A DNA stretch of 64,000 bases, from the NCBI RefSeq assembly GCF_002873335.1, contig NZ_MCUW01000010.1, positions 1 through 64,000 of the forward strand, read 5' to 3'. A program made the translations under genes and the position numbers. The notes below the pieces were generated by a model. The model made no database searches. It was not told the origin of the DNA and was given only the letters and a program-made list of their open reading frames with translations. Shown in pieces: positions 25,591 to 31,713 of the stretch. The number at the start of each line of letters is the position of its first letter. The first letter of the stretch is position 1. This DNA is from Vibrio sp. 10N.286.49.B1. GTDB taxonomy: Bacteria; Pseudomonadota; Gammaproteobacteria; Enterobacterales; Vibrionaceae.

Positions 25591-28386
25591 TTATAATGAA
25601 TGAAGGGTATCCGACCCTGATAGCTCTCTAATGTTTTTTATTTTCTCAAGGAGCACGGACTTATTAAATGGCTTAGAGACATAGTCGTCCATGCCACTTT
25701 CGCTGCAACGTCGAATGTCTTCGTCAAGGACGCTTGCAGTTAGTGCAATGATAGGGGTCCGGCCTTGGTTGTACTGCTGTTCGTAAGCCCTAAACTCTTT
25801 TGAAGCGGTAAAACCGTCCTTAACGGGCATCATGCAGTCCATAAGAACAGTGTGATAACGGTTTTTTGAATCACAAAGATAATCAAGTGCTTCTTGCCCA
25901 TTATTGGCGATATCAACGTGATATCCGGATTTTTTGAGCAGCAGCGACGCTACCTTCTGATTCACTGCATTATCTTCTACTAATAGTATGGAGAGTGCAC
26001 CGCTATCATCGGTGAGCTCGCATGATTGGCTTTCATCCGTTGACATCGTTTTGTCGCGGTTGTGATGTGCGGGTTTTTGGTCAGCTGGCGGCAAAGCATC
26101 GTGCAGCGCAGTCTTATTTTTTAAACTAACATGCTGCATCGCGGCATTCATTAATGTATCAATTAAGCGAGCACCAAGTAATGGGAAAGTGACAAGGCCA
26201 GACAATACGGCTTCATAGTCGCCAACTGGAATGGATTGTCGTTGAACTAATATCAGTGGGCACTGGGGATGTGTTTTTGCAATGTTTGCTAGTTCGTTTG
26301 AACCATCGATTGAGGCGGATACACAATACAGAATCGTCGTTTCGCCTATGGCATGTTGCATCATGTTTTCTGTAGAGGCAAATCGATGGGACAGTGATAA
26401 GGAATAATGCCCCATCTCATCAGTGAGCTGATCAGCAATCGCCTGTCCATTATCAATAATGCAAAAGCGACGTGTCATCAATGAGCTAAGTATAGGGGGA
26501 TTTGATTTTGCGATAGTGGCTTTTATCTCAAAATGAAAAATGCTGCCGGCCCCTTTTTCTGACTCAATAGCGATTTTTCCGCCCATCAATTCAACAAGCT
26601 GAGACGAAATTGCTAATCCTAAGCCGGTACCACCGAACTGTCGCGTCACTGAGCTGTCTTCTTGTGTGAATGGCTTAAAGATGGCGTCTTGTTTATCTTT
26701 ATCAATACCGATCCCGGTATCTTGTATAGTAAATAGAATCTGGCATTGTTCCTCGTCAATTTGCTCAATACTGACCTTAACTTTAACAAATCCGGTTTGA
26801 GTAAACTTGACCGCATTGGACATGAGATTCATTAAAATTTGACGTAACCGATGATCGTCAATAAGCAACAAATGTGGAAAGTTGGATGAAAATTCAACAT
26901 GGAGATCCAATGATTTTTCTTGTGCTTTAGAAAGTACGATTGCGACGGTATCGTAAACGATCTCTCTTAGGTTAGAACTGTGTAAAGAGATCAACAAGTT
27001 GCCAGATTCGATCTTAGAAATATCCAAGATATCATTGATCAAAATAAGTAAGGTTTGAGAAGACGTCTCGATGGTGTTTAAGTAGTCACGTTGAATGGGG
27101 TTTAGTGTGGAATCTGACAAGATACCAGACATACCGATTATGCCATTCAAAGGCGTTCTAATTTCGTGTGACATATTGGCGAGAAAGGAGCTTTTGGCCA
27201 CATTGGCCCGTTCTGCTTCGTTTTTAGCTGCGATCATTCGTTGTTCATTCTCACGTCGCTCAGCAATAAGCTTATTCATTTTCTCACCAAAGTGACTAAA
27301 CTCATCGTGGCCTTCTGTCGACGCCTTAATATCTGGTGTATCGTGTTTCTCTATATTCTCAAATGTCTCTAACGTGTTGTTCAAAAAGAATATAATTCTT
27401 CTTGTGATATTAATACTTAGTATAAAAAGCACGGCCATGATCAGCACTGCGACAAGAATGGTTGTCCACATCCGTTGCTCGAGTTGTAGGATGCTTTGCT
27501 CCATGTCGTTGGACAACTGTGCATTAATTTCTGTGGTGGCTTGCTGAATAAGTGTGAGTCGTTTATCCAGTGCCGCTACACCGGAAGTGATCTCTTGTAC
27601 GGTTAGCGCTTCTCTGGATTCATCAAGGACTCGATCTCGAAATAGAATACTATCGACAAATGATTCGTCCGAGAAGGTTCTTAGAAGCAAGCTGACTTGC
27701 GAGGCATCGGCGTTGATATTGAGAAAGCGGTCAATGAGGTATTGCTGGCGCTCAAACAAGGAGGTCAGCTGCACCGATGCTGAATGTTCTTCGTCATGAT
27801 GGCCGTCGTGACCTAAGTAGATGTTAGTATGGATGATCCAGTTTTCTTCTGTCGCCCACAGTCGAATCCATTCCAATGTGAATAACGCATTGAGGTGGGA
27901 TTCGAGGATGATAGACCCAGTATCTACCTTGACGCTTTCTAATTGGGATAAAAGCTGTTGAATCAGATCTACCGTCCAAACATTCCAATCTTCCACCTCC
28001 TCGATGGTCGACATCGCGCCAAGTTCACCTTGCGCTTCACGTAACTCGTTTAATGCGGTTTCAACCGTGGAGGTATCATCAAGATAGTAAGCCGTTGATA
28101 AAACGCCCTGTAGCTTGTCTAAACATTCATTTAGCTTGCCATAGATGATGGTTTTGTTGTCTTCAAAGGTATGTTGTAGTTTTTCTAGCCGTGAGCTGTG
28201 AACAATCGCGCTGTAGTTTGAGATGTAACTTAATGCCTTCACTTCCGCGGATAAAATCGACATTTGTTGCAAATCACGTTTCGCTCTAAGTGCTTCCCAT
28301 GATGACAATACTAAAATGACGATCAGCGGTAAAATCGCTAGGATAATTATTCTACTTTTGATCGACGTCTTATTTAATAAAGCCAT
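25591..28386 (-). CDS. Hybrid sensor histidine kinase
   Basis: This 931-residue inner-membrane sensor has TM1 at about 13-29, a helical periplasmic domain at about 32-305 (NIT-like helical architecture is possible) and TM2 at about 308-326. A HAMP-like linker and coiled coil follow. The HisKA domain has phospho-acceptor His407 in NMSHEIRTPLNGIIGM. The HATPase has N and G boxes (LMSNAVKFT, DTGIGID, FGGTGLGLAIS). A degenerate receiver-like region at about 655-775 lacks a clear phosphorylation motif. The C-terminal receiver has ILLVEDNAVNQ and Asp850 in VLMDCMMPVKDG. There is no HPt domain, so an external HPt protein is expected. It is divergent from the duplicated PstS-like/porin genes, 91 bp away. 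Confidence 0.92.
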   Translation of the reverse strand: MALLNKTSIKSRIIILAILPLIVILVLSSWEALRAKRDLQQMSILSAEVKALSYISNYSAIVHSSRLEKLQHTFEDNKTIIYGKLNECLDKLQGVLSTAYYLDDTSTVETALNELREAQGELGAMSTIEEVEDWNVWTVDLIQQLLSQLESVKVDTGSIILESHLNALFTLEWIRLWATEENWIIHTNIYLGHDGHHDEEHSASVQLTSLFERQQYLIDRFLNINADASQVSLLLRTFSDESFVDSILFRDRVLDESREALTVQEITSGVAALDKRLTLIQQATTEINAQLSNDMEQSILQLEQRMWTTILVAVLIMAVLFILSINITRRIIFFLNNTLETFENIEKHDTPDIKASTEGHDEFSHFGEKMNKLIAERRENEQRMIAAKNEAERANVAKSSFLANMSHEIRTPLNGIIGMSGILSDSTLNPIQRDYLNTIETSSQTLLILINDILDISKIESGNLLISLHSSNLREIVYDTVAIVLSKAQEKSLDLHVEFSSNFPHLLLIDDHRLRQILMNLMSNAVKFTQTGFVKVKVSIEQIDEEQCQILFTIQDTGIGIDKDKQDAIFKPFTQEDSSVTRQFGGTGLGLAISSQLVELMGGKIAIESEKGAGSIFHFEIKATIAKSNPPILSSLMTRRFCIIDNGQAIADQLTDEMGHYSLSLSHRFASTENMMQHAIGETTILYCVSASIDGSNELANIAKTHPQCPLILVQRQSIPVGDYEAVLSGLVTFPLLGARLIDTLMNAAMQHVSLKNKTALHDALPPADQKPAHHNRDKTMSTDESQSCELTDDSGALSILLVEDNAVNQKVASLLLKKSGYHVDIANNGQEALDYLCDSKNRYHTVLMDCMMPVKDGFTASKEFRAYEQQYNQGRTPIIALTASVLDEDIRRCSESGMDDYVSKPFNKSVLLEKIKNIRELSGSDTLHSL

Positions 28387-28477
28387 ATCACTAATCCTTG
28401 ATAATATTCTTGAACATCAAAGGCTCTGAACTAATCTATGAGTAGTCTAGGATAGGAATCCGTAAGAGTGTAATGAA

Positions 28478-30628: not shown

Positions 30629-30630
30629 CC

Positions 30631-31713
30631 ATGAATAATAAACTTCTTGTATTGACACTATCCGCGATGAGTGTCCCATCATTTGCAGCCATCGATATTA
30701 CGGATAATTTTTCGATCAGTGGTTTTGGTTCTACTTCTTGGACTAAATCTGATAATGAAACGCCTTTAATGGTGAATCGAAATATCACTGATGAAAACTG
30801 CTTTGACTGCGATACGACGTTTGGTATTCAACTTGACTATTATAGAGAGGCATTTAAAGCCTCGGTGCAGGTAGTCAAGCGCCCACAGGATAATTGGAGT
30901 GAGCCTCAGTTAGAATGGGCTTACTTAGGTTACTCCATAGGTGATTTTGAGATTCGAGGCGGACGTTTGCGTTTACCTGTTTTTCTTGCTTCTGAATATT
31001 ATTATGTGGGGCAGGCCTACACAACCGCGAGACCCCCTGAAGAGGTCTATAACAGTATCTTAGGAGTGACGGCTTTTAATGGTGCGAGTGTGACGTGGAA
31101 TTATAATGTTTCGGACGAAACTCAGCTCTCATTGACACCGTTTGTGGGCTTTAAAGACAACAATGAAGTCGACTTTAACGACACGACGACATTGGAATTT
31201 GAAACTAAGAACATGTGGGGTGCAAATGTCCAACTGACAGGCGAAAACTATCGGTTGAATTTTGCTTATTTAGATTCAAACTTTGACCAAACGGCAAAAA
31301 TTAGAAACGTGGTTGTCCCAGGCGTCGGAACGATTCCGTACGTTGAATCAAAATCGCCCGACCAAAACATTAAGCTTTATTCTCTTGGAGGAGAATATGA
31401 CTTAGGAAACCTCAAATTAACCGCTGAAGGTCAGAAAAATGACTTATCGATGGCATGGTACGGTAGCGCGGCTTACAAAATATCTGACTTTACGCCGTAC
31501 GTAGTCTACGGGCAGGATTTTGATGGGGATAATGATAAGACGGGTGCTAGCACAACGTTGGGTCTGCGCTATGACCTGCTTTATAACGTTTCACTAAACG
31601 CCGAGTGGCAATATTTCAATACCTACAATGGAGGAAATGGTGCGTTTGTGGATAACCCTAGCCCAGACACTGATGCCAATTTGTATACGGTTATGCTGAA
31701 TTTTGTTTTCTAA
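30631..31713 (+). CDS. Outer-membrane beta-barrel (porin-like), copy 2
   Basis: This 360-residue paralogue of the gene at 28969 has a signal peptide ending SFA. It has the same mature start ITDNFSISGFGSTSW, the DENCFDCDTTFG disulfide candidate, YYVGQAYTTARPP and a terminal Phe (LYTVMLNFVF). Divergence is concentrated in the mid-barrel, around residues 180-260, probably surface loops. So the two porins may differ in permeability or in exposure to phage. A bidirectional terminator follows. Confidence 0.82.
   Translation: MNNKLLVLTLSAMSVPSFAAIDITDNFSISGFGSTSWTKSDNETPLMVNRNITDENCFDCDTTFGIQLDYYREAFKASVQVVKRPQDNWSEPQLEWAYLGYSIGDFEIRGGRLRLPVFLASEYYYVGQAYTTARPPEEVYNSILGVTAFNGASVTWNYNVSDETQLSLTPFVGFKDNNEVDFNDTTTLEFETKNMWGANVQLTGENYRLNFAYLDSNFDQTAKIRNVVVPGVGTIPYVESKSPDQNIKLYSLGGEYDLGNLKLTAEGQKNDLSMAWYGSAAYKISDFTPYVVYGQDFDGDNDKTGASTTLGLRYDLLYNVSLNAEWQYFNTYNGGNGAFVDNPSPDTDANLYTVMLNFVF

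Follow-up and report, generated by a model that had tools for sequence, protein, structure and literature searches.

In Vibrionaceae, the genes of a single-lobe PstS-like protein (SBP) and a porin-like outer-membrane barrel (OMP) are kept in order beside the gene of a hybrid histidine kinase (KIN), and elsewhere in the class the same conserved pair often has chemoreceptors, c-di-GMP enzymes, or different kinases as neighbours. The pair quite probably serves signal input, and we consider it probable that it acts as a portable cassette that provides periplasmic input to a trans-envelope sensor, for which we infer docking, ligand, and output.

The window analysed here is a stretch of 64,000 nucleotides from a Vibrio genome of 5.15 Mb (the host genome). 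Gene calls and Pfam matches confirm the layout given by the initial annotation, i.e., a 931-residue hybrid kinase without HPt domain that stands 91 bp from two tandem, divergently oriented units (Table 1). The coordinates also bear out its report of a 2-bp spacing between SBP and OMP in both units, and neither unit contains an ABC permease or ATPase, again as described. KIN comprises a periplasmic NIT-like sensor (residues ~28-308), TM2 (309-327), HisKA (397-462), HATPase_c (510-623), and REC (800-917); the segment 626-795 is poorly conserved, and no part of the protein has a Pfam match to an HPt domain. SBP1 has a hydrophobic N-terminal segment (residues 15-33), judged by eye to be a signal peptide. 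The region between KIN and SBP1 can be aligned across eight divergent loci. Pho control of this region was considered and rejected: the best match to the 18-mer Pho consensus has 11 of 18 positions, a score that 32% of 300 shuffles reach.

Table 1. Genes and intervals of the locus, in positions of the window.
Feature	Position	Strand	Remarks
DUF445 gene, flank	24793-25497		
KIN, hybrid histidine kinase, 931 aa	25591..28386	-	HisKA + HATPase_c + one REC
Divergent intergenic region, 91 bp, presumed shared promoter region	28387..28477	.	
SBP1, single-lobe PstS-like protein, 162 aa	28478..28966	+	
OMP1, porin-like outer-membrane barrel, 358 aa, C-terminal F	28969..30045	+	Porin_4 4.6e-08
SBP2, single-lobe PstS-like protein, 163 aa counted from ATG 30137	30137..30628	+	
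OMP2, porin-like barrel, 360 aa, C-terminal F	30631..31713	+	OMP_b-brl 7.3e-05, below cut-off
VCA0040-like gene, flank	31796-32776		
ABC ATPase, phosphonate-binding protein, and permease genes	from 32985		

We searched 296 Vibrionaceae genomes for the SBP (E <= 1e-6) and for the sensor region of the kinase (E <= 1e-5), the latter with residues 1-380 as query, which thus include TM2 and the linker. The SBP matched in 183 genomes and the kinase sensor in 169: 151 genomes have both, 32 the SBP only, 18 the kinase only, and 95 neither (raw counts, kinship ignored). Linkage was counted with the best 137 of 150 SBP rows against the 150 kinase matches listed. Among these matches, 119 of the 137 best rows lie at most 6.5 kb from a KIN-type kinase (64 co-directional, 55 divergent). 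The remaining 18 rows were read individually, and 12 of them directly adjoin the kinase (L064, L126, L127, and nine further loci), which brings the total beside the KIN family to 131 of the 137 best rows. A narrower sensor profile (residues 28-310) finds 11 of these 12 loci, L127 (G128) being matched by the wider query only. As for the others, one locus is interrupted by a contig end (G089), one adjoins an MCP-like gene, by profile match only (L143 in G212), and four genomes (G142, G147, G195, G249) have the SBP-OMP pair alone and a KIN-family kinase elsewhere. All 132 genomes behind the 137 best rows have a kinase match. The linkage of the pair with KIN is not accidental, and both the conserved gene order and the co-occurrence in this family strongly support treating kinase, SBP, and barrel as one set. 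The host genome also encodes a second kinase of the KIN family, without an adjoining pair.

The 32 SBP-only genomes carry distant SBPs (best E 2.3e-23). In three loci with distant SBPs (L133-L135, from the SBP-only genomes G014 and G031 and from G075, which has a marginal kinase match of 2.5e-06), the order is OMP-SBP-GGDEF in all three. Gene-family recurrence was assessed in 23 of 25 Vibrio loci (L008 and L027 were left out): OMP and SBP are present in 23 each and KIN in 20. The next families are DUF445 (10/23) and the VCA0040-like family (9/23), every one of them at a window-type locus. A 585-aa family (6/23) and a 712-aa family (3/23) are present in both neighbourhood types and at differing distances.

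Across the class, an SBP match was found in 58 of 369 genomes, the host genome included; the 58 loci that were read comprise one per genome for the 57 others and a second locus from G643. The OMP adjoins the SBP in 51 of the 58. Directly beside the SBP-OMP block, 32 loci encode a signal protein (17 MCP, 6 GGDEF/EAL, 5 GGDEF, and 4 HK, with L102 tallied as HK despite an additional GGDEF/EAL neighbour), and in one further locus it lies two genes off. The other 25 show no recognised signal protein at a distance of up to two genes, and some of these end at contig ends. Signal proteins account for 34 of 113 immediate flanking genes versus 4 of 298 at a distance of at least three genes (Fisher p 4e-17, kinship ignored). 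A single one of the 34 (L102, 465 aa) lacks a TM segment in our scan. Pfam confirms 19 of the 19 signal proteins tested (9/9 MCPs and 10/10 c-di-GMP proteins and kinases), and the remainder of the tally rests on profiles made from the Pfam-tested partners and the window KIN. In L114, the reading of the MCP spans a run of N, such letters being present in four loci (L071, L084, L114, L124). The association of pair and kinase noticed by the initial annotation stands for Vibrionaceae. Elsewhere in the class the pair recurs without KIN, an outcome that the initial annotation had named as speaking against its reading, but there it is often beside other signal proteins. Because of these other partners, its suggestion of a ligand-sensing or uptake module is strengthened in the sensing half and weakened in the uptake half; its idea that the small protein informs the kinase of pore or ligand status is a hypothesis.

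An uptake module would consist of a specific porin and a half-SBP carrier that hands solute to an inner-membrane transporter, with a kinase that merely switches the pair on. The Porin_4 match of OMP1, the predicted PstS-lobe fold of the SBP, the conserved divergent intergenic region, and the phosphonate-type ABC transporter genes 1.3 kb downstream of the pair all speak for such a function, which we nevertheless regard as unlikely. No ABC gene family is found in more than 6 of the 23 vibrio loci, a single lobe provides one half of a PstS site and not the other, and frequent neighbours elsewhere include chemoreceptors and c-di-GMP enzymes, which are not themselves gene switches. In the window, a gene on the opposite strand separates the ABC genes from the SBP-OMP units. 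A phosphonate link was rejected as a matter of neighbourhood: phn-like genes come after the pair in some DUF445-type loci only and are absent from co-directional loci.

The receptors that adjoin the pair differ in their sensor domains. In the MCP partners examined, the periplasmic parts (~151-167 residues) are homologous to one another and to those of two kinase and two GGDEF partners, and this ~155-aa domain has no consistent Pfam name. Searched alone, it gave 42 strong matches (E < 1e-10), 32 of which have an SBP gene at most 4 kb away; none of the 15 weak matches was that close. The 17 seeds of the profile were drawn from the genome set in which it was tested, and when they are set aside, 15 of 25 strong matches lie within 4 kb. 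An SBP is also encoded in 34 of the 36 genomes with a strong match. Profile comparison detected no relation of the domain with either the NIT-like sensor of KIN or the domains of 120 and 255 residues in other partners. Shared ancestry of these sensor domains was rejected, the profile-comparison probabilities being 1.4 or less, and they divide into at least four groups without detectable homology. It follows that one SBP-OMP pair is combined with several receptor domains and at least four outputs, and that a single docking mode is not assured. Reuse with unrelated receptor domains and outputs is most simply caused by a portable input device.

The structure model of the 162-aa SBP1 fits one lobe of PstS only (e.g., residues 103-236 of 1twy) and departs from the two-lobed Venus-flytrap fold of PstS-type ABC binding proteins, in agreement with the single-lobe PstS-like protein that the initial annotation had read from the sequence. 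PstS has the phosphate-binding motif R-x-D-x-S-G-T, at the place of which the SBP family has the signature SDWPxxSxERxxFY (positioned by eye). The invariant residues of the SBP are R45, E57, D60, W61, F71, Y72, K95, and R97, numbered by the first row of the alignment. Searches of PDB sequences with the SBP and with the KIN sensor gave no useful match. Database entries for several members of the family bear the name "phosphate ABC transporter substrate-binding protein", a label that contrasts with the half fold, the fixed barrel partner, the adjoining kinase, and the transporter-free unit of the window SBPs. V. natriegens is among the species with a listed homologue. A half-lobe is unable to close on a ligand as a two-lobed protein does; the other half-site is thus probably provided by either the receptor bundle or the barrel.

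Fusions of the SBP to a kinase, MCP, or GGDEF protein were sought as proof of contact, and none was present among the long frames examined. Those of L152 and L153 appear to be read-through of GC-rich overlapping frames, and the 284-aa frame of L149 is an SBP preceded by an implausible leader. Tethered SBPs with a TM segment in L120, L148, and L150 look real, and PF00226 (DnaJ) matches those of L120 and L150, not that of L148.

The adjacency of SBP and OMP in 51 of 58 class loci and their 2-bp spacing in the window would also suit a sensor of envelope quality, in which the half-SBP serves its barrel as chaperone or lid and, when unengaged, signals an assembly or pore-blocking problem without any small-molecule ligand. 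This is improbable given that the fold of the SBP is, in the model, that of a ligand-binding lobe and that chemoreceptor outputs suit external solutes better than assembly stress.

The periplasmic domain of KIN is modelled as a double helical bundle of the NIT (NasR) type. The NIT profile PF08376 matches 2 of 22 members of the sensor family (best 5.9e-05), and the window sensor is unmatched. NIT sensors bind nitrate with a G-x-x-R motif, according to the accessible part of PMC8199190; this motif is missing from the window sensor and from 20 of the 22 members in all, and present in 2. A nitrate/nitrite sensor kinase that happens to lie beside an unrelated porin pair is thus very improbable, the more so as the linkage to the pair is conserved. 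The sensor region of KIN diverges strongly from that of the nearest relative, V. qingdaonensis (47% identical, core 83%), and less so from that of V. mediterranei (68%, core 80%).

Of the two barrels, OMP1 exceeds the curated Porin_4 cut-off (33.7 versus 27 bits), and OMP2 is not matched by Porin_4, its hit to OMP_b-brl staying below threshold. The paralogues in the window are 59% identical for OMP and 84% for SBP, and two V. maritimus records give 57% versus 78% and 55% versus 80%. The orthologues of V. qingdaonensis (82% and 85%) and V. methylphosphonaticus (84% and 84%) are about equally diverged in OMP and SBP. The more distant orthologue of V. hangzhouensis (L005) shows the same skew as the paralogues (53% versus 77%), and for this reason the skew lends weak support to a signal set by the barrel. 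That barrel specificity sets the signal is accordingly a doubtful proposition. Facts internal to the window, such as the 2-bp spacing, the greater divergence of the barrel, and that of the kinase sensor region, fit an input device weakly.

Gene content offers candidates for the output relay. In the relative L065, KIN, SBP, and OMP are followed in a row by a 109-aa HPt protein (PF01627 1.9e-07), which supplies the domain missing from KIN. Seven HPt matches were obtained in the host genome, and two of these lie in short open frames of their own. One is LuxU, beside LuxO (LuxU has 129.7 bits, just below the curated 140, and LuxO is above its cut-off). The second has 111 aa, is 37% identical to the HPt protein of L065, and its gene adjoins that of an RpoS-like sigma factor, which scores under the curated RpoS cut-off. 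A sigma factor gene 46% identical to this RpoS-like one sits near KIN in L060, where no SBP was seen, a barrel remnant is kept, and a receiver protein follows KIN. Guessing from this gene content, the 111-aa protein is the likelier relay partner of KIN, a choice we hold with somewhat less than even confidence, and LuxU is the next, more tentative candidate.

We propose that the barrel would let in, or itself bind, an external solute, and that the half-PstS protein would be loaded with this solute, or freed by the barrel, in the periplasm. The SBP would then dock on the helical NIT-like domain and alter the activity of KIN, in a direction that we infer; direct contact between the SBP and the periplasmic domain of the receptor has, in our judgement, about an even chance of being right. 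The phosphate would pass from the His of KIN to its C-terminal REC, to a separate HPt protein as putative relay partner, and to a response regulator. In the window, two different barrels and nearly one type of SBP would feed one KIN. A barrel and a half-PstS without inner-membrane partner would make a poor transporter and a plausible antenna.

Rather speculatively, this may reflect a widespread, undescribed principle in which a barrel steers a half-PstS messenger that reports occupancy or solute to any inner-membrane receptor plugged in (kinase, chemoreceptor, diguanylate cyclase, or phosphodiesterase), bacteria swap antennas and outputs independently of each other, and the input of some NIT-like domains is a protein, not nitrate. 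If the proposed input function is right, a number of chemoreceptors, c-di-GMP enzymes, and kinases that lack a known input would gain a testable one, and events at the outer membrane would have a direct route to cytoplasmic signalling. There would also be a concrete candidate for what NIT domains sense, posed as an open question in the available text of PMC6381276.

Several known systems share parts of this arrangement. A periplasmic binding-protein-like partner is encoded beside a hybrid kinase in TorT-TorS and LuxP-LuxQ. The likeness lies in the linkage of a binding-protein gene to a hybrid kinase gene, here in 131 of the 137 best rows, and KIN resembles LuxQ in having no HPt domain. In NspS-MbaA, a spermidine-type binding protein controls a c-di-GMP enzyme, as may be the case for some SBPs, but that protein has two lobes and there is no barrel. 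The KIN sensor is like the NIT domain (PF08376; NasR) in predicted fold and differs from it by the lack of G-x-x-R and the linkage to SBP and OMP. With PstSCAB, the shared element is the modelled fold of one PstS lobe; the window unit is without second lobe, permease, and ATPase. Binding proteins that activate sensor kinases are known in general (PMC11113362, in the part available), and activation of kinases, chemoreceptors, and c-di-GMP enzymes by binding proteins is already documented in the accessible portions of PMC11113362 and PMC9864684. In the literature searched, mostly without subscription papers and in part as excerpts, no description was found of an exchangeable input made of a dedicated half-PstS and a barrel as its fixed partner, which suggests that this combination is what is new within SBP-dependent signalling. 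In phosphate chemotaxis of P. aeruginosa, PstS activates the chemoreceptor CtpL by binding (PMC9864684, available part). Relatives of the window pair that adjoin chemoreceptors may act in a like manner, but PstS serves an ABC transporter, whereas the half-PstS has a barrel as its partner, in a unit without transporter genes.

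Long proteins ending in the lobe of SBP, the small single-lobe PstS-like protein that is paired in the window with the porin-like outer-membrane barrel OMP, are encoded at three of the loci read (Table), and they look like natural versions of SBP anchored in the membrane, with the lobe at their C-terminus. At the N-terminus, a DnaJ domain is present in the proteins of L120 and L150; none was found in that of L148. The L120 gene is followed by a barrel-like gene.

Table. Long proteins with an SBP lobe and second kinase of the KIN family
Feature	Position	Remarks
Long protein ending in SBP lobe	L120:5231-6937	TM segment, low-complexity linker
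Long protein ending in SBP lobe	L148:6240-8264	TM segment, low-complexity linker
Long protein ending in SBP lobe	L150:4983-6674	TM segment, low-complexity linker
Second KIN-family kinase	G000:C8:143161-144249 (L058:5128-8286)	

Tandem SBP-OMP arrays also occur outside Vibrionaceae: that of L068 has three SBP genes and that of L092 two. In V. harveyi (L017:756-4328), nearby genes of the co-directional pair encode, as judged by eye, a TolC-like protein, an OmpA-like lipoprotein and a GGDEF protein. Downstream of the VCA0040-like gene that flanks the window's units, a phosphonate-type ABC transporter is followed by C-P lyase genes, the latter identified by eye (32985-44723). C-P lyase genes also follow the VCA0040-like gene in L003-L007 and L011, there without preceding ABC genes (by eye).

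In the hybrid kinase KIN (25591-28386), residues 626-795, between HATPase and REC, are poorly conserved (31-44% in a comparison with four relatives) and may be a degenerate receiver. The genome holding the window (G000) encodes a second kinase of this family (1052 aa), which has two receiver stretches and no SBP-OMP pair beside it at locus L058. It also has a stand-alone HPt gene (G000:C78; L129:6274-7809), transcribed divergently from a gene for an RpoS-like sigma factor, and together these are a possible output branch. Locus L060 likewise has a sigma factor gene resembling this one in the vicinity of its KIN-family kinase.
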